DNA of 31,685 bases from a virus, in the IMG/VR virus record IMGVR_UViG_3300036860_000846, positions 1 to 31,685 of that record; one strand, 5' to 3'. Each line of letters begins with the position of its first letter. Within the stretch, counting starts at the first letter, position 1. Positions 7,560-30,330 of the stretch are shown here, piece by piece. The translations under genes were made by a program, and so were the position numbers. The notes under the pieces were generated by a model. The model worked only from the letters and a program-made list of their open reading frames with translations, did not search any database and was not told the origin of the DNA.

Positions 7560-8033
7560 ATGGCTTGGGACGCTCCCCGCACCTGGGTTACCGAGGAGAC
7601 GTGGACCGATCCTGACCTAGGGACCTTTACCGTCAAACACGTAGACGCAGAGAGAGTGGTGTTTGGATACGACGGACCACGCGGACGTGGGGACGCGGTG
7701 ATTCCCAGAGATGTCGCATCCGTCCCCGGCTTCTCCCTCGCGGCATGGCTTAGCGCAATCGCTCGCCATGCGGAAGTGGTGCTGGTCGCTACTGGTGTCC
7801 AGGGTCCGCCAAGCCCGCCCGACCCATCTGTCCGGGCTGTTGAGTGGTGCGCCGCGCGAATGCCGAGGCACCTCCCGTCGCCCCCATCTAGGGTCCCCCG
7901 GAAAGTTTCGGGCCGGGACTGGCGCACGAGACGCCGCTTAGCGCGGCGCTCGATTCCGTTCAGGAGTCAAGCTCTTTCCTCCGCGGCGAACAACGCCGCG
8001 ATTAGGTTGTCTACGACGGGTTGGTCGGGTTGA
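7560..8033 (+). CDS. Hypothetical protein, third gene of PadR operon
   Basis: A 157-residue frame starting with ATG directly after the previous TAG. The first 90 residues look like a real protein: WVTEETWTDPDLGTFTVKHV, VVFGYDGPRGRGDAVIPRDV and a hydrophobic helix LAAWLSAIARHAEVVLVATG. From about residue 95 the composition changes to Arg, Ser and Pro (PSPPSRVPRKVSGRDWRTRR), as expected when a frame is read past a frameshift. The gene may therefore be shorter than shown or damaged. No family is recognised. Confidence 0.5.
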   Translation: MAWDAPRTWVTEETWTDPDLGTFTVKHVDAERVVFGYDGPRGRGDAVIPRDVASVPGFSLAAWLSAIARHAEVVLVATGVQGPPSPPDPSVRAVEWCAARMPRHLPSPPSRVPRKVSGRDWRTRRRLARRSIPFRSQALSSAANNAAIRLSTTGWSG

Positions 8034-8164
8034 TGAGGGCTCGTTCAGCCCCGCTCCGAAAGGTGGAACCCCAAACGAATCGGCCTGAAAAGTGGCGCAC
8101 GCGGCGCAAACCACGCGCCGATCCGATCCGACTGGTGAGGGGCTGCTGATGGAGTGTTAGGTGA

Positions 8165-8605
8165 TCAGGCGGCCTCGTCGGCTTCCGGTTCGAGGTCGAT
8201 GACCTCACCCTCGATCGACGCGGCGTTTTTCGCCGCCGTGGCCAGGCCGCCGAGGGCAATGCCGATGTTGATAGTCGGCCCTCCTGATGGGGCGTTGCTT
8301 GCCCCGCGCTGGTTCTCGCCGATTCCGGCTCGGTCCAGGGCATCCTTGACGGCACCGAGGGCAGTCGGAAGGTGGTCGGTCTGCTGCGCCAAGGCGTCGA
8401 GGCGGGTGATCATGGGCTCGACCATCTGCTGAAGGCGTTCTTGCGCCTTCCTCTTCACCTGCGGCGCTCCCCCACCGTGGAAACGACACACCTCTCCACC
8501 GCGAATGGGCGGGTTGCCGCATCGCTGGCCTGTCTGTTTAGACCTAGCTTTGCATTGGCGCTCGAGGATACGTCCCGAGGCATTCAAGGGCTCGTCGGTT
8601 TCCAT
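8165..8605 (-). CDS. HGG-motif protein, probable small-terminase-like
   Basis: A 146-residue protein whose first 60 residues carry a four-Cys/His pattern: CKARSKQTGQRCGNPPIRGG, then VCRFHGGGAPQVKRKAQERL. This CxA...T.RC....I.G...CRFHGG motif is typical of phage proteins found directly upstream of large terminases and usually annotated as small terminase or its partner. The middle is helical (LDALAQQTDHLPTALGAVKDALD) and the tail is acidic. Small terminases bind the packaging site and feed DNA to the large subunit. Here the two are 1.9 kb apart, split by an accessory island. The upstream boundary is divergent with a membrane-protein gene. Confidence 0.7.
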   Translation of the reverse strand: METDEPLNASGRILERQCKARSKQTGQRCGNPPIRGGEVCRFHGGGAPQVKRKAQERLQQMVEPMITRLDALAQQTDHLPTALGAVKDALDRAGIGENQRGASNAPSGGPTINIGIALGGLATAAKNAASIEGEVIDLEPEADEAA

Positions 8606-8664
8606 GGGGTGGTGTTATTCGGTCCGGGCTTGCCAATACCAGAACAGAGCAGTCGGTCTACTAT

Positions 8665-8677
8665 CTGTAGGCTACAG
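8665..8677. promoter_or_regulatory. Dyad upstream of membrane-protein gene
   Basis: CTGTAG-G-CTACAG is a perfect 6-1-6 dyad in the 77-base divergent gap, five bases before the ATG at 8683. A possible -10 (TAGGCT, 8668-8673) lies within it. The position suits an operator, but the length is close to chance for a window of this size. Confidence 0.35.
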
Positions 8678-8682
8678 AGGGT

Positions 8683-9390
8683 ATGCCAAACCTGACATTG
8701 GGGGAATGGGGAAACGTCGCACAAATCGTAGCGACCATCCTCGCGTTGCTAGGTGTAGCCATTTCGATGTGGGTTGCCGCTAGAACGCTGCGCGAAATCG
8801 AGCACGATCGGCGCCTCCGGCATCGACCCTATCTCGCTTTCGAGCCCGGTGGGCATCGTATGGCGGTCGAATTTTCGAAGCGAGGAGCCGCGGTTCCGGG
8901 CGTGAATCCCGCTGCGGCGAAGCGCATGCTCGCTCATCTGCCAGCCGACGGCGAGTCCGTGGATCTCGTCTGGAACAATAACGGGCCTGACTACGGACGA
9001 CTCAAGAATTACGGCGCCGGTCCAGCCTTGGAGGTGAAAGTTCGGTGGATTGCTGAGCGAGTGTTTATAGGCGGCGATGGCTTCGAGGTGACAGAGGAGA
9101 AGCGGCTAGAGCCGTTATACGGCAGCAGCCTGAACACCATGCCCACGGTTCCATCTCACTTGGAGCCTGGCACGATCGGTCAATTGAGTCGAATTCCAGC
9201 CTTCATAGTGAAGGACTACGAGAAGAAGATCACCCGCGTCGATGGCTATTTCGAGATCACATGCCTCGACATCTTTCGCGAGGAGCACAGAGTTGTGCAG
9301 GAGTTCCATTTGTTCACCCAGTATCGGGAGCAACCTCCGAATGTCCATGTGACATTCTCCGCTTTGCGCTCTGATGAGGACGCCCGCTGA
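8683..9390 (+). CDS. N-terminally membrane-anchored protein, unknown function
   Basis: A 235-residue protein. Residues about 10-32 form a single transmembrane helix (IVATILALLGVAISMWVAAR), followed by a charged linker (TLREIEHDRRLRHRPYLAFE) and a beta-rich domain with LKNYGAGPALEVKVRWIAE and ITRVDGYFEITCLDIFREE. The N...GPA.....V pattern after a single membrane helix is common in uncharacterised proteins of phages and genomic islands. The layout is the same as that of the gene at 10477-11145, with the methyltransferase between them. The role cannot be told from sequence. Confidence 0.75.
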   Translation: MPNLTLGEWGNVAQIVATILALLGVAISMWVAARTLREIEHDRRLRHRPYLAFEPGGHRMAVEFSKRGAAVPGVNPAAAKRMLAHLPADGESVDLVWNNNGPDYGRLKNYGAGPALEVKVRWIAERVFIGGDGFEVTEEKRLEPLYGSSLNTMPTVPSHLEPGTIGQLSRIPAFIVKDYEKKITRVDGYFEITCLDIFREEHRVVQEFHLFTQYREQPPNVHVTFSALRSDEDAR

Positions 9391-9406
9391 CATTTGGGGC
9401 TACAAC

Positions 9407-10111
9407 CTACGCGGCTGCTCCCGCCGCACTCGGTAGTCGTTCCACGGCGATCTCGCAATACCGTTCGCCCAGCTCGATCCCGATCGCCTTCAGCCCAAGC
9501 TGTTCGGCGGCCACGAGCGTCGTCCCACTGCCCATGAACGGATCGACGACGATCCCTCCGGGCGGTACGGTGGCGCGAAGCAGGTCGACCATCAAGCCAA
9601 CCGGCTTCTCCGTCGGATGCAGGAGGGCCTTCGAGGCGGCTCGCTGATGCCGCAACACCGACTTCGGCCGTCCATTGGGGAACGCGAAGCGTCCTTTCGT
9701 GGCGAACCAGATCACGTCGTGCTGTGGCGCGAACGACGCCGACAGATCGCCCATGCCGTGGACCACGCGGTCCCACACGACCTGGCTCCTGACCTGGAAG
9801 CCTGCGGCCTCGATGGCCATTTTCCAGACATCTTCGACATCCCACCGGCACGAACACACCAAGCAGCCGCCCTCTTTGACGATGCGGAAGGCATCCCAGA
9901 GGAACCAGATGAACGGTTGGGTGTCGTTCAGAATTCGCTGATTCTTGCGGCCGTAGCCACCTGATTTCGGCTGTGTGCCATACGGTGGATCGGTGATGAC
10001 CGCATCGACACTCCCCGATGGCAAGTGGCGGAGCACGTCGAGGGCATCACCGTGGTAAATGGTGATGCCGACCTGCTGGAAAAAGGGAGTGGGCATTCGG
10101 TGGCTTGACAC
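9407..10111 (-). CDS. DNA methyltransferase, N6-adenine or N4-cytosine type
   Basis: A 234-residue enzyme of the N6_N4_Mtase family. Catalytic motif IV is DPPY (41-44) and the SAM-binding motif I is DPFMGSGTT (190-198). The order IV before I marks the beta class, as in CcrM-type or Type II enzymes. HPTEKP (165-170) is the conserved motif before the final Rossmann part. It adds methyl groups to DNA, probably to shield phage DNA from restriction, since no restriction endonuclease gene is beside it. The start may be GTG at 10111 or ATG at 10096. The gene is on the opposite strand to its neighbours. Confidence 0.92.
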   Translation of the reverse strand: MSSHRMPTPFFQQVGITIYHGDALDVLRHLPSGSVDAVITDPPYGTQPKSGGYGRKNQRILNDTQPFIWFLWDAFRIVKEGGCLVCSCRWDVEDVWKMAIEAAGFQVRSQVVWDRVVHGMGDLSASFAPQHDVIWFATKGRFAFPNGRPKSVLRHQRAASKALLHPTEKPVGLMVDLLRATVPPGGIVVDPFMGSGTTLVAAEQLGLKAIGIELGERYCEIAVERLPSAAGAAA

Positions 10112-17811: not shown

Positions 17812-18681
17812 CTACCGCACGATCATAGCTTTAAGAGGGCTGAACTGCTCGTGCCCCTCCCGCAGGTGCTCAACGCCCATGCTCCGCAGATAGAGCTGCG
17901 TCGTGGTCATGCTCGAATGACCGAGGATGCGCGACAGGCGGTAGACATCGAGGCCGTTCCTGGTGGAGTGAACCGCGAAGGCGTGGCGGAAGGCGTGGGG
18001 ATGCACCTTGCCCTTGATGCCGATCCGTTTGCAGAAATCCCGTAGGTCCTGATAGGCGTGGTTGCGCTCCATCCGCGCCCCATCCCCCTTCGAAAAGAGA
18101 TAGCGACTCGTGGCCTGGTTCCCCTTCCCTTGCTTGAGCAGGCGGAAGACGTGCTTCCGCAGCTCGGTCGAGATGGGGACGAGGCGTTCCTTGTTGCCTT
18201 TTCCGAGGACTCGAAGAATCAGGTTGTCCAGATCGACCTTGGCCCGCTCCAAGGTGAGGGCCTCGTTGATGCGGAGGCCGCAATCGAGAAGCAGAACGGC
18301 GAGGGTCCAGGTGCGGATCTCGATCTTGCCCTTCGGCCGATGCGCCATCAGCGTCCGGATGTCCGCATCGCTGAGGATGTCGATTGGCTTGGGTGGATTG
18401 CGTAGGAGCTTGATGCGGAATCGCTCCGGGAGATGGCCCTCTTCGTGGAGCCAGGTCAGGAACGAGTTGATCGACCGAACCCGTAGGTTCACCCCGCCGG
18501 GCGACAGCCCTCGTTGCCGAAGGCCGATGACCATCGCATCGAGACTTGCCCGAGTGATCGTGGGAGGGAGTTCGCGGAGCGAGGCGCGGTAGGTGCGGAC
18601 TGTATTGGGACTCCACTCGCGGAGGAACGTCCCGTGCTGAACGAAGGAATCGATCAGGGTCGCGAAGTTTGGTTGGATCAT
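17812..18681 (-). CDS. int: Tyrosine recombinase/integrase (left module)
   Basis: A 289-residue XerD-like integrase. The start at 18681 (MIQPNFATLI) is chosen because the open frame upstream runs through the tRNA half-gene. GGAGA lies 10-11 bases before it. The N-terminal SAM-like domain spans about 1-95. The catalytic set is complete: Arg137 (CGLRINEA), Lys161/164 (GKGNKER), His229-Arg232 (HAFRH), His255 (GHSS) and nucleophile Tyr264 (TQLYLR). It would recombine phage attP with a tRNA-Lys gene, since the 3' half of that gene lies 80 bases upstream. The same orientation as the tRNA half is usual for such elements. Confidence 0.92.
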   Translation of the reverse strand: MIQPNFATLIDSFVQHGTFLREWSPNTVRTYRASLRELPPTITRASLDAMVIGLRQRGLSPGGVNLRVRSINSFLTWLHEEGHLPERFRIKLLRNPPKPIDILSDADIRTLMAHRPKGKIEIRTWTLAVLLLDCGLRINEALTLERAKVDLDNLILRVLGKGNKERLVPISTELRKHVFRLLKQGKGNQATSRYLFSKGDGARMERNHAYQDLRDFCKRIGIKGKVHPHAFRHAFAVHSTRNGLDVYRLSRILGHSSMTTTQLYLRSMGVEHLREGHEQFSPLKAMIVR

Positions 18682-18759
18682 GATTAGGTTGTCTCCAGCG
18701 CCCTCTTGCGAGGGCTTGCTGGCGACCCAATCACTGCAACCTGTTGACGTCTTGGAAGT

Positions 18760-18806
18760 TGGTGGGCCCCCCGGGGATCGAACCCGGGACACCCTGATTA
18801 AAAGTC
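18760..18806 (-). tRNA. 3' half of a tRNA-Lys(TTT) gene, attachment-site core
   Basis: Reading the minus strand from 18806 gives GAC-TTTTAA (anticodon loop with TTT), TCAGG (3' anticodon stem), variable loop, a perfect T-arm (CCGGG-TTCGATC-CCCGG), the 3' acceptor GGGGCCC, discriminator A and CCA at 18760. The 5' half is absent: upstream bases (GCA before GA) do not pair with TCAGG, and no GGGCCCC acceptor follows. This is how an attP core (or the displaced att copy after integration) looks. It would rebuild an intact tRNA after integration. It is not a working tRNA on its own. Confidence 0.85.
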
Positions 18807-19089
18807 TGCCGCATCTGCAATTTCCTGAAACCGACTGCAACGATTGACTGACCTTTGTGGCCGGTCAAGCTATTGACCTGTAAGCACTTTCCTGTTTCCA
18901 TCCACTTCAATCTAGCTCGTGGTCATTTCACCTGATTGCGGAGTCGCTGTGACTTCCGGGTGACTGCGAGCGACATCGTTGAGCCCGGTCTGCCGACTCG
19001 CGACACTCTGAATTCGGCATACCGACTCGCCAACCGCTGCGCCTCGACGCCTGAGCAGTCACACGAGTCGCAGCGCAGCCGGGAGAGTC
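18807..19089. promoter_or_regulatory. Candidate integrase arm sites between the two integrases
   Basis: About 280 bases without a gene. ACTGCAAC followed by TTGAC occurs on both sides of the tRNA half (18733-18748 and 18834-18848), and CTGCAA again at 18815-18820. These are candidate arm-type sites for the left integrase. Further right GCGACTC or its inverse GAGTCGC occurs four times (about 18942, 18994-19001, 19023-19030, 19065-19071), including CCGACTCGC twice, which may be arm sites for the right integrase. The junction between the two modules probably lies here. Confidence 0.4.
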
Positions 19090-20289
19090 ATGCCAAAAAC
19101 AATCACCTTCATCACCGATGCAGAAATTAAGAGTCTAAAGCCGCGCGAACGCGCCTACTACATCGCGATTCCTGACTGTCCCGGTCTCGCATTGCGTGTT
19201 GCGCCAAGTGGCAAGAAGACATGGTCGGCGCGATACCGCATTGGTCGCCGCCAGCGGCGGTGGACAATCGGACAGTATCCGAAAACGACTCTCTCGCAAG
19301 CGCGAGAGGCTGTCAACAACCGCAAGGACGGCGAGGATCCTCAAGCGGCCAAGAAGGCGCATCGTGAGGCTGACACGTTCAAGGACTTCGCGGCTACCTA
19401 CATCGAGAAGCACGCGAAGCCGAAAAAACGCACGTGGAAGAGCGACAAGATGCAGCTCGACACCTACGTGCTGCCGGAATGGAAGCATCGCCTCGTCTGC
19501 GACATCACGCGTCGCGATGTCCGCGAACTGCTTGACTCGATAGCTGCGCGGCCTGCGCCAATCGTCGCCAACCGCGTCCGGTCGCTGCTGCACAAACTGT
19601 TCAACGTCGCGATAATCCTCGAGGTCGTAGAACACAATCCCGTCACCAAGACCGCGAAGCTGGCCGAGGAGCACGCACGTGATCGGTTCTTGACGCACGA
19701 CGAGATCCAGATTTTCTGGGAGAAGTCCGAGACGCTGCCTCAGGAAATGAGGGCTGCGTGGCAAATCCGACTGCTCACAGCCCAGCGTGGCGGTGAGGTC
19801 TATGGCATGCGGTGGCAAGACATCGACCTCAACACCGGGTGGTGGACCATACCGGCCACGGCTGCGAAGAACAAGAAGGCGCATCGTGTGCCACTGTCGC
19901 AGCCGGTGCTTGATTTGCTAACACCGTTGAAGGCCAAGGCGGATGAAGCGCTCAAGAAGCACCCTAAGTCGCCGCATGCCGTCTACGTGCTCCGGAACGC
20001 CCGAGGCAAACGGCAGCAAGCGCAAGCCGCCGCCATCTTCAGCATCAAGGATTTCCGCGGTCACGATCTTCGCCGGACGGCCGCGAGCCTCATGGCGTCG
20101 TCAGGGGTTCCCCGTCTGACGATCAGCAAGATTTTGAACCACACTGACTCCAGCGTCACCGCCATCTATGATCGGCACTCTTACGACGCAGAAAAGCGAA
20201 CGGCCCTAGACAACTGGGCACGTCAGCTGAGAACCATTGTCGAAGAACAGAACGGCGGGGCCGTGCTGCCATTCGCAGCGAGAGCATGA
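19090..20289 (+). CDS. int: P4-type tyrosine integrase (right module)
   Basis: A 399-residue integrase of the DUF4102-containing P4 family. Residues 1-90 hold the DUF4102 arm-binding domain (LTDAEIKSL-like start, then PGLALRVAPSGKKTWSARYR and IGQYPKTTLSQAREA). Residues 95-190 form the SAM-like core-binding domain. The catalytic set is Arg233 (AQRGGEV), a Lys near 260-263, His325-Arg328 (GHDLRRT), His351 (LNHTDSS) and Tyr360 (AIYDRHSY). Enzymes of this family insert satellites and genomic islands such as P4 into tRNA genes. The gene points away from the tRNA-Lys half, and no second tRNA fragment is seen near it, so its own att site is unknown. Confidence 0.93.
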   Translation: MPKTITFITDAEIKSLKPRERAYYIAIPDCPGLALRVAPSGKKTWSARYRIGRRQRRWTIGQYPKTTLSQAREAVNNRKDGEDPQAAKKAHREADTFKDFAATYIEKHAKPKKRTWKSDKMQLDTYVLPEWKHRLVCDITRRDVRELLDSIAARPAPIVANRVRSLLHKLFNVAIILEVVEHNPVTKTAKLAEEHARDRFLTHDEIQIFWEKSETLPQEMRAAWQIRLLTAQRGGEVYGMRWQDIDLNTGWWTIPATAAKNKKAHRVPLSQPVLDLLTPLKAKADEALKKHPKSPHAVYVLRNARGKRQQAQAAAIFSIKDFRGHDLRRTAASLMASSGVPRLTISKILNHTDSSVTAIYDRHSYDAEKRTALDNWARQLRTIVEEQNGGAVLPFAARA

Positions 20290-20632
20290 CGATCAGTGTT
20301 TCGCAGTGCGTGTTTGAAAGTTGGGCAAGATGACTTTTGCTCCCGAGCCCCAGTCGAGCACTTATTCCTGTTCTAACTGGGTTTTAGGCTTGACAGCTCG
20401 ACGGGCTCGTGTAGCCTAGCTCTCACGGGCGCCCAGTGCGCTCAGCCCTGAGCTGGAAGTCTCTGGCCCTCCGCTGGTAGTCGTCTCCTACGACTCACCG
20501 ATGGGCGGTGAGGTCACCTTCGCAGCAAACCGCCACAGCGCGGCCACCAGGCATGAGTTTCGATGATCATGCGACCGGTTGCCGCGTTTTTGTTTGTACT
20601 GCGCTGCCGGTCCACTTCCAACAGGAGTGACT
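20290..20632. promoter_or_regulatory. Control region between integrase and XRE gene
   Basis: About 340 bases without a gene. It includes the promoter at 20390-20417, the dyad AGTCGT/ACGACT (near 20478-20494) and an imperfect dyad around 20552-20571 (CATGA...TCATG). A repressor or AlpA-type protein from the next genes could bind here. The Shine-Dalgarno of the XRE gene is at the end. Confidence 0.45.
20390..20417 (+). promoter_or_regulatory. Promoter of the right-module operon
   Basis: TTGACA (20390-20395), a 16-base spacer and TAGCCT (20412-20417) point toward the XRE and AlpA-like genes. The -35 hexamer is perfect and the -10 is moderate. Confidence 0.6.
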
Positions 20633-20863
20633 GTGCCGCCGTACCTCCGCGCCAAGTTCGAACGACATCGGCTGCGGCTGTCCCAGCAAGACGTCGCACT
20701 GCGTGCCCACCTCGCGCAGACCACGGTGTCTGCGATTGAAAACGGCCGCGTGAACCCCACCACTAGCGAACTCGCGGCCCTCGCCGAAGTGTTCGGCATC
20801 GCTGATCCCTCGGCGCTCCTGCAGCCCGTGCGCCTGCAGGAAGAGGGAGGCGCACGTGGCTGA
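20633..20863 (+). CDS. XRE-family transcriptional regulator
   Basis: A 76-residue protein. GTG at 20633 is chosen over an earlier in-frame ATG at 20579 because AGGAG ends five bases before it and the earlier residues are Cys/Pro-rich. The sequence is a single HTH_XRE domain: LRAKFERHRLRLSQQDVALR, then AHLAQTTVSAIENGRVNPTT and LAALAEVFGIADPSALLQ. The helix-turn-helix is SQQDVALRAHLAQTTVSAIE. There is no peptidase or other C-terminal sensor, so it would act as a small repressor or activator of the element. Its stop overlaps the AlpA-like gene by eight bases. Confidence 0.85.
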   Translation: MPPYLRAKFERHRLRLSQQDVALRAHLAQTTVSAIENGRVNPTTSELAALAEVFGIADPSALLQPVRLQEEGGARG

Positions 20864-21104
20864 CACACAGCTGGCAGCGTCACAACCGGATGGGCATGCG
20901 GTCACGGACACGGACCGCAGCCGCACGCGCGTCATTCGAAAACCCGTCGTGCTCGCGCGAGTGGGCGTGAGCGACACCACGCTGTGGCGATTGGTGCGCG
21001 CCGGGAAGTTCCCCCGGCCGATGCAACTCTCGCCCGGCACCGTCGGCTGGCCAGAGCACGAAGTTGACGCCTGGATTGCCGCGCGAGCCGCGGAGCGCAA
21101 GTGA
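20856..21104 (+). CDS. AlpA-like regulator/excisionase
   Basis: An 82-residue protein starting with GTG at 20856 (GGGAGG five bases upstream). Residues 25-80 form an AlpA/MerR-type winged helix: RVIRKPVVLARVGVSDTTLW, then RLVRAGKFPRPMQLSPGTVG, WPEHEVDAWIAARAAE. AlpA-type proteins of P4-like satellites and CP4-57 switch on excision and replication genes. It is coupled to the XRE gene before it and to the methyltransferase-like gene after it (TGATG), which makes one regulatory unit. The family is clear, the targets are not. Confidence 0.85.
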   Translation: MADTQLAASQPDGHAVTDTDRSRTRVIRKPVVLARVGVSDTTLWRLVRAGKFPRPMQLSPGTVGWPEHEVDAWIAARAAERK

Positions 21105-22204
21105 TGTCGAGCACGTCACTTGCGGAAATGCCCAAGCCGAGCGCCATGGGCACCTGCACGGGGAGCCCCATGTCGGTGCTCGCGGCACTCGAACGTGCGC
21201 AACACGCACTCTCGCACGCCCGGACTGTGCAGGAGGTTCTGACCCATCACGCTGCAGCGAAAGCGGCGGCGGTCTACGCTCGGGAGCAGAAGCTTGGCCG
21301 AGAGGTGGTTCGTAAAGCACGCGCCGTGGTCTTTGAGGCCCTGCGCCGGCTGGGAGGCTTCTTAACCCTCACGGATCGGGCGGTCGGCGGTCGCCCCTAT
21401 CACGTCGGTACCGGTACACATCGTGTACCGGTAGCCACGCTAGATGAACTGGGGATCGACAAGAACACCTCCAGCTGGGCGCAACAGCTTTATCACCTTC
21501 CGCCGGAGGACTTTGCTGCAGTTCGTGACGGCTGCTCGACGTTGCGCCGTTTACTCACGGATCGGAAGCGAGCCCGCGACCTTGCAGAGGCTATGCGCTT
21601 CGCCCGAAGCATGCATATCGATGCGGACGACTGCGACCTTCGCGTCTGTGGACATCGCGAGCTGTTCACCTCTGGTTTCCGCCCGGACGCCGTCATCACC
21701 GCGCCTCCTGCAGGCCGAAAGCATCTGCAGGTCTTTCCAGAACTAGCCAGCGCCTGCAAACAGGCCGGTGTCTCGTTCGTCGCCGTCCAAGTATCCCCGC
21801 GGCATCTGTTCGAGGTGGGTCCGCAACTCTGCGCGTACCTCCCGTACCAGTGGGCGATTCCGAGCGGAGATAGCCGCACCCTCGGCGGCAACGTTCTCTT
21901 GTTGTTCGCCGACGACGCCGCCATGGAGCGTGGTCGTCACCGAATAAAGGGGACAGAGGCGTGGGCGAGCAATCTGATCGAACGCTTCACGGAGCCGGGG
22001 CAGCTCGTGTGCGATCCATTCCTAAATCGCGACGTGGCGATAGCCGCGCTGCAACTGAAACGGCGCTTCGTCGGCGCCCACGTTGACGGGGCGGTCATCG
22101 AGACCGCGAGACAGAAGATCGAGGACGAGTGCGCGATCTGGGAATATCGCCGGCGTTCGGTGCCCCGGGTTTCATCGTCGCAGATCGACTCGCCTCGAGC
22201 GTAA
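21104..22204 (+). CDS. DNA-methyltransferase-like protein with degraded motifs
   Basis: A 366-residue protein. The N-terminal region (LAALERAQHALSHARTVQEV) resembles phage proteins that accompany N6-adenine methylases. The C-terminal half follows the beta-class methyltransferase layout, but the catalytic DPPY is TAPPA (about 199-203) and the SAM motif DPFxGSGTT is DPFLNRDVA (about 304-312). The following AALQLKRRFVGAHVDGAVIE and ETARQKIED match the family. So the fold is kept while both the catalytic Asp/Tyr and the Gly-rich loop are lost. It probably cannot methylate and may bind DNA or a partner methylase. The start is ATG at 21104, one base overlapping the AlpA stop. The intact enzyme in the left module is at 9407-10111. 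Confidence 0.65.
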   Translation: MSSTSLAEMPKPSAMGTCTGSPMSVLAALERAQHALSHARTVQEVLTHHAAAKAAAVYAREQKLGREVVRKARAVVFEALRRLGGFLTLTDRAVGGRPYHVGTGTHRVPVATLDELGIDKNTSSWAQQLYHLPPEDFAAVRDGCSTLRRLLTDRKRARDLAEAMRFARSMHIDADDCDLRVCGHRELFTSGFRPDAVITAPPAGRKHLQVFPELASACKQAGVSFVAVQVSPRHLFEVGPQLCAYLPYQWAIPSGDSRTLGGNVLLLFADDAAMERGRHRIKGTEAWASNLIERFTEPGQLVCDPFLNRDVAIAALQLKRRFVGAHVDGAVIETARQKIEDECAIWEYRRRSVPRVSSSQIDSPRA

Positions 22205-22210
22205 CCATCG

Positions 22211-22789
22211 GTGGCTGCGATCAACGACAACGGCGCGACTGCCGACACGGTACCGGAGTGGTCCGACGTGGGCGAGATCCAACCGGACGACGCGCCCCCA
22301 CGTCCAACACCGCTCAGGGTTCAGGCAGAGGCGGTACCTGCCAGTTTGCTGGGGTGCCGACGCTGGGTCGTTTGGAACTACGAACTCAGCGACCTGAGGT
22401 GGACGAAAGTGCCATACGTGTCCACAGAGCCAGCGCGTAAGGCATCAAGTACCAACCCCGCGACGTGGCGCACGTCCAGAGAGGCGCTAGACACCTATTA
22501 CGACGGTAAGTGCGATGGGATTGGGTTCGTGCTCGGTCAGTTCGGCGATGCCGCCGACCGTGTCGTCGGGGTGGACCTCGATCACTGCGTGGACGAGTCA
22601 GGACTAGTCGCCGAGTGGGCGCAACGCATCATTGCCCGGCTCGATTCCTACACCGAACTGTCGCCGAGTGGCAGGGGCGTGCGGGTCTTTCTACTGGCGG
22701 ATGGTGTGCCCGGCCCGAGACGGAGAAAGGGCCCAGTCGAAATGTATGACACGGGCCGGTATCTCACTGTGACGGGGCATCACATTTGA
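22211..22789 (+). CDS. Prim-pol domain (AEP-type primase), separate frame
   Basis: A 192-residue protein starting with GTG at 22211. It holds the archaeo-eukaryotic primase-like domain found at the N-terminus of phage and P4-type replication proteins: CRRWVVWNYELSDLRWTKVP, DGIGFVLGQFGDAADRVVGV with the metal-binding DLDHC just after, then ELSPSGRGVRVFL and YDTGRYLTVTGHH. It makes primers, and maybe short DNA, at the origin. In relatives it continues into the helicase domain as one protein. Here a TGA ends it right after the TGHHI segment, and the helicase begins at the overlapping ATG (TGATG). It is unclear whether this is a natural split or a frameshift. Confidence 0.8.
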   Translation: MAAINDNGATADTVPEWSDVGEIQPDDAPPRPTPLRVQAEAVPASLLGCRRWVVWNYELSDLRWTKVPYVSTEPARKASSTNPATWRTSREALDTYYDGKCDGIGFVLGQFGDAADRVVGVDLDHCVDESGLVAEWAQRIIARLDSYTELSPSGRGVRVFLLADGVPGPRRRKGPVEMYDTGRYLTVTGHHI

Positions 22790-24570
22790 TGGCGACGACG
22801 ATGGCACGGACGCCGAGCGACCTCCAAGAACGAGGTGACGCACTGGCGGTGATCTACCGCGAGGTGTTTGCGGCAGACATGCGGGAGAACTCTCTGGCGG
22901 CAGGGGCAGACGGAACGCTGCACGCACACACCTCCGCTATCAGCATCGCGACCGAGCAGCTGAAGGCGCTACAGGCGATCCCAGACGACGAACTACTGAA
23001 GCGCATATTCGCCTCGAAGAGGGGCAAGAAGATCAAGAAGCTCTGGAACGGCGACACCTCCGCTCACGGCGGCGACCATTCAGTCGCCGATGCCGCGCTC
23101 TGCAGCCATCTGGCTTTTTGGACCGCGCATGACGTCGAACGGATGGACCGGCTGTTTCGGCAGTCGAAATTGTATCGACCGGACAAGTGGGACCGCGACG
23201 ACTATCGAGATCGCACCATCGCGCTCGCCTGTCAGTCAGCAAGCACGTATCAGCTGCCGTCAGGACGGACGGTCTCGACCGACGACTTCATTGCGTATCT
23301 GCCGCAGCACACCTACATCTTCGTGCCAACGCGCGAGATGTGGCCCTCATCCAGCGTCAACGCGAGCGTCCCTCCGATTCCAGCAGGCACTGCAGAGGAC
23401 CCGTCAGCCACCATGCCAGCCTCCGCTTGGCTGGATCGACATCGGGCCGCGGAGCAGATGACGTGGGCACCCGGCCAGCCGCTGCTGATTCGTGACCGGC
23501 TGGTGTCTGACGGTGGCTGGATTGAACGTCCCGGCTGCAACACGATCAATCTCTATCGTCCGCCCCAGATTGCGCACGGCGATCCCAGCCGAGCCGCGCC
23601 GTGGCTCACCCTCGTCCGCACGCTGTATGACGAGCATGCCGAGCACATCATCGCGTGGTTCGCGCATCGCGTGCGACGCGCATTCGACAAGATCAATCAC
23701 GCACTGGTGCTTGGCGGCCCGCCTGGCATTGGCAAAGACACCCTGCTTGAGCCTGTGAAGCAGGCAGTCGGTCCGTGGAACTTCAGCGACATCAGCCCAA
23801 CGAACCTGTTCGAGCCATTCAACCCCTACGTCAAGAGCGTGATTCTCCGCATCAGCGAAGCGCGCGACATGGGGGACGTGAATCGGTACGGATTCTACGA
23901 GCACATGAAGGTCTACGAGGCTGCACCGCCGGATGTGCTTCGGGTGAACGAGAAGAACATCCGTGAATACGCGGTCGCCAACGTCTGTGGCGTCATCTTC
24001 ACGACGAACCACAAGACCGATTGCCTGTACCTGCCTGCGGATGATCGTCGTCACTTCGTGCTGTGGTCAGAGCGGACGGCGACCGACTTCGCGCCCGACT
24101 ACTGGGACAAGTTGTGGCAGTGGTACGCGGACGGCGGCTTCGAACACGTCGCCGCGTACCTCGCGAACTACGATCTGACGTCCTTCAATCCCAAGGCACC
24201 GCCGCCGAAGACACCCGCTTTCTGGGACATCGTGGCGGCGAATCGTGCGCCGGAAAACGCCGAACTCGCCGACGCCCTCGACGCGCTGGACAATCCTGCC
24301 GCGATAACGCTGCAGCAACTTGTGTGCGCGGCCGCCGGGGAGTCCCTCGCCTTTCTGAATGATCGCAAATACGCGCGGCAAGTGCCGCATCGCTTGAGCG
24401 AGGCGGGCTATGTGCAGCTTCGCAACGACGCCGCGAAAGACGGGCTGTGGAAGATTCAGAAGAAGCGGCAGGCGGTCTACGTTCGGCAGGAGTTAGGACT
24501 GCGCGAACGGCAAGACGCCGTGAGGTCGCTGATCGCCACGCAAGAGCCTGCGCCACGGTCAGGTCGATGA
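22789..24570 (+). CDS. SF3-type replication helicase (primase C-terminal part)
   Basis: A 593-residue protein translated from the ATG at 22789 that overlaps the prim-pol stop by one base. Residues about 110-150 match the helical domain found before D5/P4 helicases (WTAHDVERMDRLFRQSKLYR, PDKWDRDDYRDRTIAL). The helicase core has Walker A GGPPGIGKDT (about 307-316), then ILRISEARDMGDVNRYGFYE, the sensor segment VCGVIFTTNHKTDCLYLPAD and DRRHFVLW. Members replicate satellites and phages by unwinding at an origin. The C-terminus has a winged-helix-like region. A prominent inverted repeat begins about 50 bases downstream. Confidence 0.88.
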   Translation: MATTMARTPSDLQERGDALAVIYREVFAADMRENSLAAGADGTLHAHTSAISIATEQLKALQAIPDDELLKRIFASKRGKKIKKLWNGDTSAHGGDHSVADAALCSHLAFWTAHDVERMDRLFRQSKLYRPDKWDRDDYRDRTIALACQSASTYQLPSGRTVSTDDFIAYLPQHTYIFVPTREMWPSSSVNASVPPIPAGTAEDPSATMPASAWLDRHRAAEQMTWAPGQPLLIRDRLVSDGGWIERPGCNTINLYRPPQIAHGDPSRAAPWLTLVRTLYDEHAEHIIAWFAHRVRRAFDKINHALVLGGPPGIGKDTLLEPVKQAVGPWNFSDISPTNLFEPFNPYVKSVILRISEARDMGDVNRYGFYEHMKVYEAAPPDVLRVNEKNIREYAVANVCGVIFTTNHKTDCLYLPADDRRHFVLWSERTATDFAPDYWDKLWQWYADGGFEHVAAYLANYDLTSFNPKAPPPKTPAFWDIVAANRAPENAELADALDALDNPAAITLQQLVCAAAGESLAFLNDRKYARQVPHRLSEAGYVQLRNDAAKDGLWKIQKKRQAVYVRQELGLRERQDAVRSLIATQEPAPRSGR

Positions 24571-24937
24571 AGTCAGTGAAGTCAGTGGTGGGCGACCCAG
24601 CGTCGCAGAGCTTGAGAGCGAGTCGGTCAGTGCAGTCAGCGAAGTCAGTGGTTGCCTATCCGCAGCCCCAGGCCCCTTTCCCACGCTCACCCCCATCCTC
24701 ATCGGGAGTGAGTGTGAAAAAGAGGGAGCGAGAGCGGGCCGAGACTGCGGATAGGGGACCACTGACTTCGCTGACCTCACTGACCGGGTTCTTGTGTTCC
24801 GAGTTCTTCAACCCATGTGGCTTCAGCTCGTTGAAGCGCGGCAAACGGTCAGCGTTGCCAGTTAGGCGGCGCAGAGACACCACGATTGGCTATCACAGTG
24901 TCCGATTCTGCAACTTGTTGAAAGCAAAGAGCCGGTG
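24566..24937. repeat. Iteron-like inverted repeat, candidate origin
   Basis: The gap between helicase and TerS genes. Units of nine bases near TCAGTGAAG occur as a direct run at 24572-24589 and inside two 41-base arms: 24624-24664 and, inverted, 24746-24786 (37 of 41 bases match). Each arm has three consecutive units (TCAGTGCAG-TCAGCGAAG-TCAGTGGT in the left one) plus CCTATCCGCA. The 81-base centre is purine/pyrimidine-skewed. A smaller hairpin follows at 24820-24837 (GCTTCA/TGAAGC). In P4 the helicase-primase binds short iterons at its origin, so this is a good candidate site for the helicase just upstream. Confidence 0.7.
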
Positions 24938-25594
24938 ATGAACGACGCGACTGAACAGTCACACCAGAGACTCGGACCGAGCGAGCCGTTAGCGCCGTCT
25001 GACGAACTGGGGACGTCTAGGGCGGCTTCTGACGGGTCTGCTCAGGGGACGCACTCCCAGTCGTCTGACGCTCGGCTCGCCGCTCCCAGCGTCAGCCAGC
25101 GCGTTGGAGACGTGCCCTCGCCCACCAAACAGCTCGACCCAGACTCAATCAAGCGCGACGACGCGCCCCAGCCCCGCGAGAACTCCGGGCGCTTTCAACC
25201 CGGCAACACCGCCGCGTTGAAACACGGTGGCAGACGTTCACTCGACCGCCCCGAAGCACTCATCGCCATCGCTGGGAAACGAGCGGAACTCACAGCGCAT
25301 CTCGGCGATCAGTCGTCTGTCATTCAGCAAGACATCGTCACTGACTACGCGCGCACCGACGTACTCATTGAATCGGTCGCTGCGAACATCGAGGTCGGCG
25401 GCATCTTCACGGCGAAGGGCCGCACGCGTGCGGCCGTCACGCTACTCCTTTCCCTGATGGATCGCCGACTTCGTCTGGCACAGACCCTCGGCATCGAGAA
25501 GAAGCAGCGACAGATCAACCCGCTCGACGCGGTGCGGGCGGCCGTCGCCGAAGCCAATCGACAAGAAGCGGACAACACCGATGACGCTTCTTGA
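24938..25594 (+). CDS. Small-terminase-like protein
   Basis: A 218-residue protein starting ATG at 24938 (GTG at 24935 is an alternative). The first 85 residues are Ser/Pro/Asp-rich and probably disordered. Then comes the motif typical of small-terminase and DNA-binding phage proteins: SGRFQPGNTAALKHGGRRSL, followed by helices (LIAIAGKRAELTAHLGDQSS, VTDYARTDVLIESVAANI) and a coiled C-terminus (LLSLMDRRLRLAQTLGIEKK). The gene ends 14 bases into the terminase gene, which is the usual small/large arrangement. It would bind the packaging site and recruit the large subunit. The site itself might lie in the upstream repeat. Confidence 0.8.
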   Translation: MNDATEQSHQRLGPSEPLAPSDELGTSRAASDGSAQGTHSQSSDARLAAPSVSQRVGDVPSPTKQLDPDSIKRDDAPQPRENSGRFQPGNTAALKHGGRRSLDRPEALIAIAGKRAELTAHLGDQSSVIQQDIVTDYARTDVLIESVAANIEVGGIFTAKGRTRAAVTLLLSLMDRRLRLAQTLGIEKKQRQINPLDAVRAAVAEANRQEADNTDDAS

Positions 25595-27071
25595 TTTCAT
25601 GTGGCTGTTCGCCGAGTTCCAGCACGCCAGTTGGAAGACGTGGCGTGCCGTCCTGTCGCGCCTCACGCCCAACGTGCGCGAGTTCTACGCCATCGTAGGG
25701 CGAGGCGCCGGCAAGAGCAGAATCGTGGCGCTGCTCGCCTGCTTCTTTGCGAGTCGTGAGTACCGTCGCGTCCCAGGTGAATTCGTCTACATCGGCATCT
25801 TCGCGCCTGATCGCAAACAGTCCTCGGTCACCTTCCGCTATGTCACCGGACTCTTGCGCAGTGTCCCTGCCCTTGATGCGCTGATCGTCAGTGAATCCAA
25901 AGACAGCGTCGAACTTTCGAACGGCATCATCATCGAAGTCATCACGGCGAGCGTGGCCGCGCCGCGCGGTCGTGCCTACGCACTTGTCATCGTCGAAGAA
26001 GCGGCATTCCTGCCGACTGACCAGAGCGCCAATCCCGACGTGGAGCTGCTGCGCGCCGTCCGTCCCGCTCTCGCAAGAGTGCCGGGCTCGCTGCTCGTCG
26101 TTGTCAGCAGCCCGTATGCCCGCAAAGGCATCATCTGGACCGCGTGGCAGAAGTACCACGGCAAGCCGGACTCTGACGTTCTGCTCGTGCAGGCATCCAC
26201 GCAAGAGCTGAATCCCACTTTCGACAGCCGCGCCATCTCGAAAGCCTACGAAGAGGACCCAGCCAGCGCCGCCGCTGAGTTCGGCGGGCTGTTCAGAACC
26301 GACGTCGAATCGTTCATTTCGCGCGACGCGGTTGACGCCGTTGTCGTCTCTGGCCGAATCGAGCTGCCGCGAATCGGCGGTGTGACCTACGAGGGCTTCG
26401 CCGACTTCGCAGGCGGTGGCAGTTCGACGGGCGACTCGGCAGTGTTGGCGATTGCGCACGCCGACAGGCGGGACCGTCGCGTGATCGCCGTGCTCGACGT
26501 CGTGCGGGAGGTCCGCCCACCCTTCTCGCCCGAGCAGGTCTGCGCCGACTTCGCTGCGACGTTGCAGAGCTACGGCATTCGGGAGATCAAGGCGGACCGC
26601 TGGGCGGGACAGTTCCCTGTCGAGCAGATGCGCAAGCACGGCATCACGGTCACGCCAAGTGAGCGCAGCAAGTCTGAGATCTACCGCGACGTGTTGCCAG
26701 CCATCAACAGTGTCACGTGCGAACTCCTGGATCTTCCCCGTCTCAGTGCGCAGCTGCTCGGTCTCGAACGACGCACGGCGCGCGGCGGGCGCGATTCCAT
26801 CGACCACGCCCCCGGTGGACACGACGACGTGATCAACGCCGCCGCAGGCGCCCTCGTGCAGACATTGGCTGCGTCATCGCATCGCGGCATGCGCGTGAGG
26901 GACATGTGGACCGGCGAAATCATTCACGGCGTCGACCATCACGGCGTCGAGTGGCGCGATGGCAAGGTGTGGCAGGGCGTTGTGCCAGCCCCTCGGGATG
27001 CGAAGGGCCGTCCGCTGGGCTACGCGAAGCGATATGAATCCGGCCAGTTCGTCGGCGACGTGGTGGTCTGA
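25581..27071 (+). CDS. terL: Phage terminase large subunit (right module)
   Basis: A 496-residue packaging motor. Walker A is GRGAGKS (40-46) and Walker B is VIVEE (136-140), with Glu replacing the usual Asp in the first acidic position. The motif III-like LLVVVSSPYA follows. The nuclease has Asp275 (GFADFAGG), Asp339 (KADRW) and Asp415-Asp416 (GGHDDVINA), so both activities look intact. It is different in sequence from the terminase at 4756-6288, so the two modules package DNA independently. The gene overlaps its TerS-like neighbour by 14 bases. The next gene follows after one base. No portal or capsid follows. Confidence 0.93.
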   Translation: MTLLDFMWLFAEFQHASWKTWRAVLSRLTPNVREFYAIVGRGAGKSRIVALLACFFASREYRRVPGEFVYIGIFAPDRKQSSVTFRYVTGLLRSVPALDALIVSESKDSVELSNGIIIEVITASVAAPRGRAYALVIVEEAAFLPTDQSANPDVELLRAVRPALARVPGSLLVVVSSPYARKGIIWTAWQKYHGKPDSDVLLVQASTQELNPTFDSRAISKAYEEDPASAAAEFGGLFRTDVESFISRDAVDAVVVSGRIELPRIGGVTYEGFADFAGGGSSTGDSAVLAIAHADRRDRRVIAVLDVVREVRPPFSPEQVCADFAATLQSYGIREIKADRWAGQFPVEQMRKHGITVTPSERSKSEIYRDVLPAINSVTCELLDLPRLSAQLLGLERRTARGGRDSIDHAPGGHDDVINAAAGALVQTLAASSHRGMRVRDMWTGEIIHGVDHHGVEWRDGKVWQGVVPAPRDAKGRPLGYAKRYESGQFVGDVVV

Positions 27072-27072
27072 C

Positions 27073-27411
27073 GTGACGGCATCTCACTTGTACCGCGTTG
27101 AAGATCCCACCTTTAGGCGCTGGTTCTGTCGATTCGCCGGTTGGCCGAGTCGCTACCTGGCCCGTTGCGAAACCGTCATCGAGCACCGAGCCGATGGTGT
27201 CGTTGTGCTCCACATCTCGAACGGTCTCTATGCGCTGCTCAGCATTTCGTGGGCACGTCAGCGCGCCTCATTGCTCCCCGGCTCGGCGCTGCTGTCGCCG
27301 GATGATCTGTGGGGCCTCGACGAGACGCTGACGATTCACGTTCGACGGTTCTTGCTTAAACATCGGCTCATCGACACACGAGGACGTTCAACACGGAGAC
27401 ACACAGCATGA
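27073..27411 (+). CDS. Small protein after the terminase
   Basis: A 112-residue protein starting GTG at 27073, one base after the terminase stop. The sequence begins VTASHLYRVEDPTFRRWFCR, then FAGWPSRYLARCETVIEHRA, VVVLHISNGLYALLSISWAR, and ends in a basic tail. It is helical with a hydrophobic middle, but not a clear membrane helix. It overlaps the next gene (ATGA). The place between terminase and scaffold-like gene is where portal genes usually lie, but it is far too short for a portal. No family is recognised. Confidence 0.65.
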   Translation: MTASHLYRVEDPTFRRWFCRFAGWPSRYLARCETVIEHRADGVVVLHISNGLYALLSISWARQRASLLPGSALLSPDDLWGLDETLTIHVRRFLLKHRLIDTRGRSTRRHTA

Positions 27412-27641
27412 CGCTCAGGGAATTCGCGAAGGCAGTGATCGACGACCCCGAATACCGCTCGACGGTCGTCGCCCGCGCCCACGCTGGCACGCTACCGCCA
27501 GACGTTGAGGCGCTGTTGATTGAAATGGCTGACGGACGGCTGTCGCCTCTGAGTGCGGAATGCGTGCCTACCTCCACGCAGAATCCGCGCACGTTGGCCC
27601 TGGTTCGTCCGTCGGCCACCGTTGAAGAGGAGCGGCCATGA
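27408..27641 (+). CDS. Small acidic protein, packaging operon
   Basis: A 77-residue protein with overlapping start (ATGA at 27408). It begins MTLREFAKAVIDDPEYRSTV and continues with VARAHAGTLPPDVEALLIEM, a small helical domain, then a Ser/Thr-rich tail. Short proteins with this FAK-V-DDPEYR opening are seen after terminases in phages and satellites, with unknown function. The overlap of start codons with both neighbours shows a tightly linked operon. Confidence 0.7.
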   Translation: MTLREFAKAVIDDPEYRSTVVARAHAGTLPPDVEALLIEMADGRLSPLSAECVPTSTQNPRTLALVRPSATVEEERP

Positions 27642-27958
27642 GCGACATCCCAGACATCGTGGCGATGATGCGCGTTGAAGTCATCAAAGTGTTGCCGTTC
27701 GGCCCCGATGTCACTGAAGCGGTCTTGCAGCATCTGGCGACGGTGCCGTATCGCGGCGATGACGCAGCCTATCTCGTCGAAGCAGGTCACGCGATCAAGC
27801 TCGCGGCGAAGAGGGCGGTGCAACCGCTGATCGATCAGTTGGAGGCTGAGGCGGCGGTCGCGAAGGCCAGAGCGGACACCCTCGAAGCACAGATGAAGGT
27901 CGCGCACCGTGAGTTCGAGGAGTTTCGGCGCATGGCAACGCCGAGCACGATTCAGTGA
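27638..27958 (+). CDS. Coiled-coil protein, packaging operon
   Basis: A 106-residue protein starting ATGA-overlapped at 27638. The first 60 residues are helical (IPDIVAMMRVEVIKVLPFGP, LVEAGHAIKLAAKRAVQPLI). The rest is an uninterrupted coiled coil (LEAEAAVAKARADTLEAQMK, VAHREFEEFRR). It is followed ten bases later by the scaffold-like gene. It could be a scaffold partner or a size-determining protein, but there is no direct evidence. Confidence 0.7.
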   Translation: MSDIPDIVAMMRVEVIKVLPFGPDVTEAVLQHLATVPYRGDDAAYLVEAGHAIKLAAKRAVQPLIDQLEAEAAVAKARADTLEAQMKVAHREFEEFRRMATPSTIQ

Positions 27959-27968
27959 AGGAGACACG

Positions 27969-28649
27969 ATGGCCTTGAAACCTGTGATTGACACGCTCGA
28001 TGGTCTGCCGCCCGCCATCCGCGAGCACTACGTGGCGAAGGACGGCAAGTACCAGCTCGCGCTCGACGGCGAACACCCCGACACCGTGCGGGTCGCGGAG
28101 TTTCGCGCGAACAACATCAGGGTGACCAAAGAGAACGAGGACCTGAAGACCAAGTTCGCCGGCATCGACCCCGACGCGGTTAGAGCGGACAAGGCAAGGC
28201 TCGAAACCCTCGAAGCGGCGAAGCCGGACGAGACGATTGCTGCACTGCGAGCCCAGCTCGCCGAGGCGCACACTCGTGCGAATGCCTCGGTGCTGAAGGA
28301 CGCGATCACCGCCGCGTTTCTGAAGAATGGCGGGCGGCCGAACGCGGTGGACTACATCGTGAGCAAGGCCGCCGACAAGTTCGCGGTTGAGGGCGGCGTG
28401 CTCGTCGGTAAGGTGTTCGACGCCAACAAGCCGGGCGAAAAGCTCACCGTGGACGGCTTCATCTCGCAGCACGTGAGGGATTCAGACTTCGCGTTCAAGG
28501 CATCCAGTGGCGGCGGCTCAAACCCGAGGCCGGGTGATGGCCGATCTTCTGGCGGGAAAGAGTTGCGCAATCCGGACGCGCGGACACTTGGGGCTAATGC
28601 CAACGCAATCGCCCGCGGCGAGATGCGCGTGGTTTACGACAACGACTGA
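27969..28649 (+). CDS. Scaffold-like protein (right module)
   Basis: A 226-residue protein with AAGGAG five bases before the ATG. It begins MALKPVIDTLDGLPPAIREH, then YVAKDGKYQLALDGEHPDTV, followed by a coiled coil (RAPDAVRADKARLETLE-type heptads to residue 110), a helical domain (VLKDAITAAFLKNGGRPNAV, DYIVSKAADKF) and a Gly/Ser/Arg-rich disordered end. A short DGL...YV..DG.Y start with a coiled coil and a basic tail is typical of phage scaffolding proteins. In satellites such a protein can set capsid size (as Sid or CpmB do), an analogy only, because no capsid gene is present here. Confidence 0.7.
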   Translation: MALKPVIDTLDGLPPAIREHYVAKDGKYQLALDGEHPDTVRVAEFRANNIRVTKENEDLKTKFAGIDPDAVRADKARLETLEAAKPDETIAALRAQLAEAHTRANASVLKDAITAAFLKNGGRPNAVDYIVSKAADKFAVEGGVLVGKVFDANKPGEKLTVDGFISQHVRDSDFAFKASSGGGSNPRPGDGRSSGGKELRNPDARTLGANANAIARGEMRVVYDND

Positions 28650-28657
28650 GAGGCGAC

Positions 28658-29299
28658 ATGACCCCCAAATATCGTCTGATTCGCGACACGCAGCGTCGAA
28701 ACGTCCGCTTCACGCAGTTGCCGATCACGGTGCTCGATCCACTGGAGGACTACGACGCGTTTGTCGTACAAGCCGTTCAGGCCAAGGCGGCGATTGAGGC
28801 GAACGATCACTTTGCCCCGAAAGGCCAGCGCGCGGAGAAGGACGCGAAGGTTGAATCGCTCGTCAAAGGGCTCGTCGATCTTCGCACGTCGCGTCTCGTG
28901 GGCTTTGACGCGGACATCGCCGCACACCGCGTCGCCCTGCTGCCTGCCAGCACGGAGCAGCCCGAAGCCCGCCGTATCGACTTCTTGCTGTCGCATCTGC
29001 GTGACCGGACGCCGCAGGAGATCGCAGTCTTCTACAACAGCGCGACGGACGAAGAGAAGCTGGTTCTTGAGGCTGCAGCGCAGAGTGTCGGTCGCATCCC
29101 GACGAAGACAGCTGACGGCGGTCTGGTCTGGGCCCCGCTGCTTCCGGCCGAGACGATCAACGAGAGCATCATCGCGCGTGCGAGTGCGCAGAACCCACAT
29201 GGCGCCCAGAAGCTGCAGGAGCTGGAGGAACTCCGCGCCATGCACGTGACCGTGGCAGGCATCGCCGAGGCGACAGTGCGCGAGGTATTGGAGGGCTAG
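28658..29299 (+). CDS. Unknown protein, last gene of packaging operon
   Basis: A 213-residue protein beginning MTPKYRLIRDTQRRNVRFTQ with GAGAGG before the ATG. The middle shows KAAIEANDHFAPKGQRAEKD and LVKGLVDLRTSRLVGFDADI, and the end shows FLLSHLRDRTPQEIAVFYNS. The composition is mixed helical, with no membrane segment, Cys or nuclease motif. It follows the scaffold-like gene after eight bases and ends before a strong ribosome-binding site (GGAGGG) at 29290-29295 that serves only a 20-codon remnant. It is probably a morphogenesis or DNA-handling protein, but I do not recognise it. Confidence 0.7.
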   Translation: MTPKYRLIRDTQRRNVRFTQLPITVLDPLEDYDAFVVQAVQAKAAIEANDHFAPKGQRAEKDAKVESLVKGLVDLRTSRLVGFDADIAAHRVALLPASTEQPEARRIDFLLSHLRDRTPQEIAVFYNSATDEEKLVLEAAAQSVGRIPTKTADGGLVWAPLLPAETINESIIARASAQNPHGAQKLQELEELRAMHVTVAGIAEATVREVLEG

Positions 29300-29302
29300 A
29301 AG

Positions 29303-29365
29303 GTGTCGGGCAGCCTGACGCGATCCATCACGTCGCGCTCGACGGCGCGCTGTCGGCTCGTTTGA
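29303..29365 (+). pseudogene. 20-codon frame with strong RBS, probable gene remnant
   Basis: GGAGGG (29290-29295) stands seven bases before GTG at 29303, but the frame stops after SGSLTRSITSRSTARCRLV. Such a good start signal for a useless peptide suggests that a longer gene began here and was cut by the insertion of the effector cargo. A possible matching C-terminal fragment is at 30331-30481. Confidence 0.35.
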
Positions 29366-29400
29366 TGATCGCTGGTTCTAAGAGATACCATCGTCGCGCG

Positions 29401-30330
29401 ATGGTGGAGCAAGAGTATCCGTGCCCTCTGTGTCAGAGCGCCCCCGCCACAGGCGATAACAGAGTGAATCCGTTCGGCTTCCGTTGTAAGCGGTGTGGCC
29501 TCTACGATCTTGAGTTCAGGTTTATGGCTGGCATCAAGACGATCAGTCAGGAGCAAGACTTTGTCAGGCTCTTGCCTTACCTCTGTGCTCACCTTCGGCA
29601 GGCGAGCGACCGTGGCGAAATCGTAGAAGTGGGGCACGACAATTGGAGAACACTAGCCGAAGGCCACGCGCACACGCCGGTGTCGCAAAAACTCGACATG
29701 GCGTTGAGGCTCTTCGCCGCTCGTTCAATCTCTCCAGGAACTGGCGTCGCTCTCGACGCTGATCACGACTTCGTGCTGTTGGATGCGGCAGACGCGGGTG
29801 AGATGCACTATTTGAGCCGCTCCCTCGTGGAGCAGCAGCTTCTTGAGCGTCGCGGACATCAATCTGACGCCACGTACGTCGTGACGCCGAAGGGTTGGGA
29901 ACGTCTTTCTCCTGTGGATTCCGGCGGCGTGCCTGGGACGTGTTTTGTCGCGATGGCGTTTGACCCGTCACTGGATGGAGTCTACGAGAGCGGGATCAAG
30001 CCCGCAGTGCAGGCGAGCGGCCTGACTGTAATCAACGTCGGCAAGGTGCAATACAACGGGATCGTCACGGACCTCATTCATGCAGAGATTCGTCGAGCCC
30101 AGGTGATCGTCGCAGACGTCACGCGTCAGCGCCCAAACGTGTACTTTGAAGCCGGGTTAGCTCTTGGCCTCGGACGAATTGTCATTTGGAGTTGTCGCGA
30201 AAACGAAATAGCCGACGTTCACTTTGACACTCGCCAATACAGTCACGTGGTGTGGAAAGACGCCGCAGACCTCCGGACCAAGCTCGAGGCGCGGATACGT
30301 GGGACCCTGGCCGTCGCGGTGAGGCACTGA
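29401..30330 (+). CDS. Zinc-ribbon protein with TIR/deoxyribosyltransferase-like domain
   Basis: A 309-residue protein, ATG at 29401 chosen to start just before the zinc ribbon (an in-frame ATG at 29365 is also possible). Residues 8-35 hold CPLC and CKRC pairs. Residues about 110-165 form a winged-helix-like part (LSRSLVEQQLLERRGHQSDA, TYVVTPKGWERL). Residues about 180-305 match the TIR/nucleoside-deoxyribosyltransferase-like domain: CFVAMAFDPSLDGVYESGIK, then IRRAQVIVADVTRQRPNVYF, EAGLALGLGRIVIWSCR and VHFDTRQYSHVVW. Such proteins are frequent in defence islands and may act on NAD or nucleotides, but the activity here is inferred. It is inserted after the packaging operon as cargo. Confidence 0.8.
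   Translation: MVEQEYPCPLCQSAPATGDNRVNPFGFRCKRCGLYDLEFRFMAGIKTISQEQDFVRLLPYLCAHLRQASDRGEIVEVGHDNWRTLAEGHAHTPVSQKLDMALRLFAARSISPGTGVALDADHDFVLLDAADAGEMHYLSRSLVEQQLLERRGHQSDATYVVTPKGWERLSPVDSGGVPGTCFVAMAFDPSLDGVYESGIKPAVQASGLTVINVGKVQYNGIVTDLIHAEIRRAQVIVADVTRQRPNVYFEAGLALGLGRIVIWSCRENEIADVHFDTRQYSHVVWKDAADLRTKLEARIRGTLAVAVRH

Follow-up and report, generated by a model that had tools for sequence, protein, structure and literature searches.

The window, that is the whole stretch of DNA analysed here, corresponds to one complete IMG/VR record, 31,685 bases long. Its right-hand module (19090-29299) carries, in this order, an integrase, XRE, AlpA, a methylase-like gene, a PrimPol, a helicase, the putative origin (ori), terminases and a scaffold gene. 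The features around the helicase and the putative origin are:

22211 to 22789, plus strand: separate PrimPol-like primase/polymerase half (phrog_13901, E = 3.7e-37; phrog_1829), sharing a 4-nt overlap with the helicase gene
22786 to 24570, plus strand: DUF5906 SF3/D5-like helicase with an NrS-1-type helix-bundle domain (Pfam, profile and fold), putative iteron-binding initiator
24250 to 24495, plus strand: C-terminal winged-helix domain of the helicase (residues 489-570; model with pLDDT about 95), putative iteron reader according to Mantel tests
24562 to 24589, plus strand: outer iteron array on the left, with three 9-bp units at 24563, 24572 and 24581; it overlaps the stop codon of the helicase
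24625 to 24652, plus strand: inner iteron array on the left, with three 9-bp units at 24626, 24635 and 24644; outer portion of the 41-nt arm
24653 to 24666, plus strand: inner box adjoining the left array, TGCCTATCCGCAGC; family consensus TTTYCYATYNCC
24653 to 24757, no strand: spacer between the inner iterons, 105 nt, 65% GC
24745 to 24757, minus strand: inner box adjoining the right array, inverted
24758 to 24785, minus strand: right iteron array, three inverted 9-bp units (24758, 24767, 24776)
24935 to 25594, plus strand: terminase small subunit, weak match (phrog_370, E = 0.0036); context, outside the putative origin
25581 to 27071, plus strand: terminase large subunit (phrog_2, E = 6.2e-25); context

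The order integrase, AlpA and primase-helicase-ori is of the PICI type, and with its terminase and scaffold genes the right-hand module resembles capsid-forming satellites. Around it, neither convincing att repeats nor element borders were found. A second phage gene set on the opposite strand (capsid, terminase large subunit, methyltransferase), accompanied by another tyrosine integrase, lies to its left (605-10111 and 17812-18840, both minus strand), and two adjacent elements may be present in the record. The protein encoded at 29362-30330 has a zinc-ribbon-like start, a C-terminal part that by eye is nucleotide-binding effector-like and a weak Lar match (E = 0.0035); an accessory or defence gene is possible.

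The helicase contains DUF5906 and the NrS-1 helix-bundle domain (HBD; PF22763, E = 1.2e-20) as its only Pfam content, and Pfam gave no match for the PrimPol-like protein of 22211-22789. The AlphaFold2 model of the helicase has a mean pLDDT of 84, which rises to about 95 in the C-terminal domain, and its best PDB fold match is the C-terminal region of the NrS-1 polymerase (6k9c, E = 2.0e-17), followed by AsfvPrimPol, D5/E5, SaPI PriRep1 and the SaPI5 primase-helicase. The profile search agrees with the fold search on the NrS-1-like nature of the protein, and the best matches among named phages reach about 36% identity over half of it. Judged by Pfam, profile and fold, the helicase is NrS-1-like: the HBD and the helicase fold are present and the PrimPol half resides on a separate, overlapping gene. 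Hence, it is not a P4 alpha protein, and the P4-type assignment of the earlier note gives way to an NrS-1/D5-like DUF5906 helicase accompanied by a PrimPol-like gene.

Both inverted arms are composed of 9-bp units near GTCAGTGAA. The arms (24624-24664 and 24746-24786) are complementary at 37 of 41 positions and separated by 81 nt, which confirms at the same place the nine-base units and the pair of 41-base arms that the earlier note had described. Lengthened inwards, the same arms reach 65 nt with an 80% match and a 33-nt loop. The units within each array are in phase. In the spacer, the left half is pyrimidine-rich (0.73) and the right half purine-rich (pyrimidine 0.21); given its 65% GC and AT runs that never exceed 5 nt, it offers no obvious melting segment. 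The left array is duplicated, with 37-nt copies at 24562-24598 and 24625-24661 that are 78% identical, and the right side has one copy; extra units are also present in some relatives.

That this arrangement lies far above chance, as claimed before, is borne out by three measures. Compared with its own opposite strand, the stretch gives a BLAST E value of 2.4e-21; folded as single-stranded DNA it reaches -70.9 kcal/mol (z = -8.25), which none of 200 shuffles equalled; and with an inverted-repeat score of 30 it stands well above 264 random stretches taken from related loci, whose median is 8. The gene layout marks the stretch as non-coding, with the helicase stop at 24570 and the next likely start at 24935. 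Searches found no Rfam family in the window, no terminator-like site (T-tract) in the array and no promoter-like site in 24000-25600 (sigma-70 consensus only). Cumulative GC skew, which the earlier note had put forward as a check, fails to indicate the array: the minimum of the right half lies at about 26-27 kb, and the skew mainly tracks gene orientation.

A scan for GTCAGTGAAGTCAGTG retrieved other contigs with mirrored arrays directly 3' of homologous helicases, 46-55% identical to that of the window. The exact 16-mer count (34 in viral contigs) is no evidence by itself; the architecture is. With an alignment of these helicases as query, 52 viral and 46 genome loci were collected; their sources are Alpha-, Beta- and Gammaproteobacteria together with MAGs that bear labels such as Gemmatimonadales and Acidobacteria. 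An inverted repeat with a score of at least 14 lies close to the stop codon of the helicase in 62 of 85 nonredundant relatives, and about a quarter of the relatives have no clear array under the criteria used. The same score is attained by 67% of 109 loci, near-copies included, but by 1.1% of 264 stretches drawn at random from such loci. Where the repeat is present, its first arm begins a median of 4.5 nt past the helicase stop. The earlier note had named loss of the repeats beside a retained helicase as evidence against an origin; most relatives retain the array, which favours that earlier reading. Prevalence is low in the three orders surveyed (5/398, 2/399 and 3/397 genomes).

The 9-bp step is likewise a property of the family. 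Period 9 occurs in 65 of the 85 loci and periods 7, 8, 10, 11 and 12 in at most 7 each; period 6 reached 46 loci, but at a threshold that is weak for so short a unit. At lag 9 the arms have an autocorrelation of 0.57, and other lags give 0.20-0.31. One locus (L365, 2395-2664) carries four direct GTCGGTGA-type double units, 78-87 nt apart. Across the family a box near TTTYCYATYNCC adjoins the inner iteron on both sides, and the spacers have a median length of 97 nt and a mean GC content of 44% (median 46%), compared with 60% in the helicase end. Half of the spacers, against 15% of shuffles, contain a CG-rich alternating hexamer, and the left half is more pyrimidine-rich than the right in 61 of 63 loci, an asymmetry to which the inverted inner parts contribute at least partly. 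The only constant partner of the array is the helicase. The primase partner varies between AEP (fused or separate), TOPRIM/DUF7146, RepB-type and PolA fusion, and the genes 3' of the array include terminases of several unrelated families, HNH, SSB, methylase and portal.

More distant homologs extend the picture to plasmids. Two circular plasmids of 8.7-9.0 kb encode distant DUF5906 proteins (19-25% identity) and have 9-bp inverted repeats no more than a few hundred bases 3' of the gene: the iterons CGGTTACAA in Proteus pW47-1 (L446, 5371-5640) and GGTTCC/GTTCTA-type units, read by eye, in Moellerella pW18-2-d (L447, 5198-5308). Both plasmids are circumstantial support for the layout working as a replicon. 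A Klebsiella plasmid of similar size showed no clean 9-bp step, and directly downstream of the distant homologs in the Thiohalocapsa, HMSP1-Susan, Vibrio 1.021, ctNMl277 and ctvy9321 phages no 9-bp arrays were found. In pW47-1, the stretch just 3' of the DUF5906 gene resembles sequences in 47 E. coli records, to which it is 80-90% identical. Serratia phage JS26 (L452, from about 4450 onward) has mirrored repeats of another step, 11 bp (CTACGCAATCC), 3' of a distant primase-helicase gene. In a Roseomonas mucosa plasmid (L449, 3944-5110) an IS21 element follows the PrimPol gene where the helicase part is expected, possibly a broken replication gene.

The unit itself varies between elements (GTCAGTG, GTCGGTG, GTCCGTG, GCGCGTG and others), and the two arms of one element share one unit. 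When the left unit was picked with no knowledge of the right arm, the inverse of that unit was found downstream in 66 of 74 loci; as controls, dissimilar units taken from other loci gave 13% and the same strand 18%. Turnover is considerable, as position 4 of the iteron alone requires 16 changes on the ATPase-domain tree. In a first set of loci, unit distance correlates with winged-helix distance (Mantel r = 0.32, p = 0.0005), also when the ATPase domain is controlled for (partial r = 0.28, p = 0.001), whereas the reverse partial correlation is 0.02 and not significant. In 34 other loci the winged-helix partial r is 0.23 (p = 0.001) and the reverse -0.005. Across these sequences, then, the divergence of the unit follows the winged-helix domain of the helicase and not its ATPase domain, in both locus sets.

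Within the winged helix, a candidate code first spotted by eye links the class of the residue at L554 to iteron base 4 (L/M = A; Q/Y/F/A = G; R = C). The pair L554/base 4 ranks top of 2,826 column-position pairs in the first set (z = 14.9), and 14 of 16 disjoint tree contrasts are concordant. Well-supported branches leave only 6 independent pairs, for which the sign test is not significant. As a one-residue rule the code failed in the second set, with 13 of 33 loci predicted correctly against 9.9 expected (p = 0.15), and it is kept as a lead only.

Since the array, with a changing unit, accompanies the same helicase in dozens of other mobile elements, it is very probably a docking site at which the helicase begins DNA copying. 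For the window, we are largely confident that 24562-24785 constitutes the ori of the right-hand element and that the helicase of 22786-24570 binds the 9-bp iterons via its C-terminal winged helix. Retention of the array beside the helicase in most relatives speaks, as far as sequence comparison reaches, for the earlier proposal that the repeats are a replication origin which the neighbouring helicase recognises. It is coevolution that argues for this binding, and autoregulation would account for it equally well. By analogy with SaPI, Cch2 and pRN1, one helicase assembly would form on each inward-pointing array through the winged-helix domain, so that two rings might be loaded face to face around the spacer. 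The rings would then melt or extrude the spacer and separate outwards, and the adjacent PrimPol could prime the exposed strands.

Transcriptional control offers a different account of the same repeats, in which the helicase or a small repressor acts on the iterons as an operator or attenuator between early and packaging transcription and replication starts elsewhere. The position of the array between helicase and packaging genes agrees with this, as does the covariation of unit and winged helix. Iteron initiators often act both in replication and in autoregulation. However, the gene 3' of the array differs among relatives, two facing arrays about 100 nt apart better match an origin, the search of 24000-25600 for the sigma-70 consensus gave no promoter-like site, and the sequences at the equivalent position in SaPI/PICI and pRN1 are origins (PMC6092414, PMC4234260). 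We therefore regard control of transcription in place of replication as unlikely. Slightly less probable still is an origin recognised by its structure, the 65-nt arms forming a cruciform or hairpin that acts as the signal and the 9-bp repeats being incidental. The stability of the predicted hairpin would suit such an origin, for which the pRN1 ori is a precedent, being a stem-loop needed as a structure and free of iterons (PMC4234260). Yet a hairpin requires no 9-bp periodicity, whereas period 9 dominates here and the unit follows the DNA-binding domain; the pRN1 analogy moreover rests on a system in which specific binding could not be demonstrated.

The earlier note had also considered a packaging start, and in the window the array does precede the terminase pair, whose small subunit might read it as a pac or cos site. 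Among relatives this association dissolves: terminases, if present, come from several unrelated families, many loci have other genes in that place, and it is the helicase that stays constant. A packaging start is accordingly unsupported and very improbable. For an intrinsic terminator or a chance repeat there is hardly any room, for although a long hairpin follows the stop codon, the array contains no T-tract terminator, the window has no Rfam match, and recurrence across loci with replicated statistics makes this reading unlikely in the extreme.

Taken beyond the window, the replication-origin reading leads to a tentative proposal, which we hold with somewhat less than even confidence: a large undescribed family of origins in which the winged helix of a DUF5906 helicase reads mirrored 9-bp iterons, the iteron sequence turns over with the protein, the primase module is swapped freely and, in one clade, a wing residue (L554 in the window) is a candidate determinant of iteron base 4. 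For many uncultivated prophages and satellites the array gives a sequence signature by which to find the putative origin, and the naturally matched protein-iteron pairs form a series for studying how initiator helicases choose origins. If true, the role of L554 would make origin specificity partly predictable from sequence.

Several described systems share parts of this design. In P4, the winged helix of the alpha helicase binds ori repeats, according to a citation in PMC4234260; compared here by description only, P4 alpha differs in having a TOPRIM-type primase on the same chain. The polymerase of phage NrS-1 is the closest solved structure to the window helicase and has one recognition site per strand, in mid-genome, but these sites are 8-nt priming template sequences needed for primer synthesis and not arrays (PMC7102993). 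The pRN1 ori consists of a 100-nt stem-loop that lies 3' of an AEP-SF3-winged-helix protein; it is required as a structure and has no iterons, and specific protein binding to it could not be shown (PMC4234260). pRN1 and phage BIP-1 are like the window in the kind of protein, the position, the strong inverted repeat and its poor sequence conservation (PMC4234260), and differ in that iterons are not described there.

SCCmec Cch2 is, like the window protein, a D5-like helicase with repeats downstream of its gene, and binds them with its C-terminal domain (PMC7581432). It differs in using three 5-nt repeats, and its own inverted repeats are dispensable for binding (PMC7581432). The reader role established for the C-terminal domain in SaPI and Cch2 is one that coevolution suggests for the window helicase. 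Origins of SaPI/PICI elements lie 3' of rep and contain two iteron sets (PMC6092414). In common with the window, the ori immediately follows the replication helicase gene and two sets of short repeats flank a spacer. Unlike in SaPI/PICI, the window helicase belongs to a different clade and its arrays are often followed by the element's own terminase genes; its units are mirrored and combined with an inner box, and their 9-bp step may be a further difference. The central segment of PICI origins is AT-rich, whereas the window spacer is GC-rich and those of its relatives are AT-richer on average. On present sequence evidence the array is best read as a replication origin of SaPI/PICI-like design that belongs to an NrS-1-like helicase clade.
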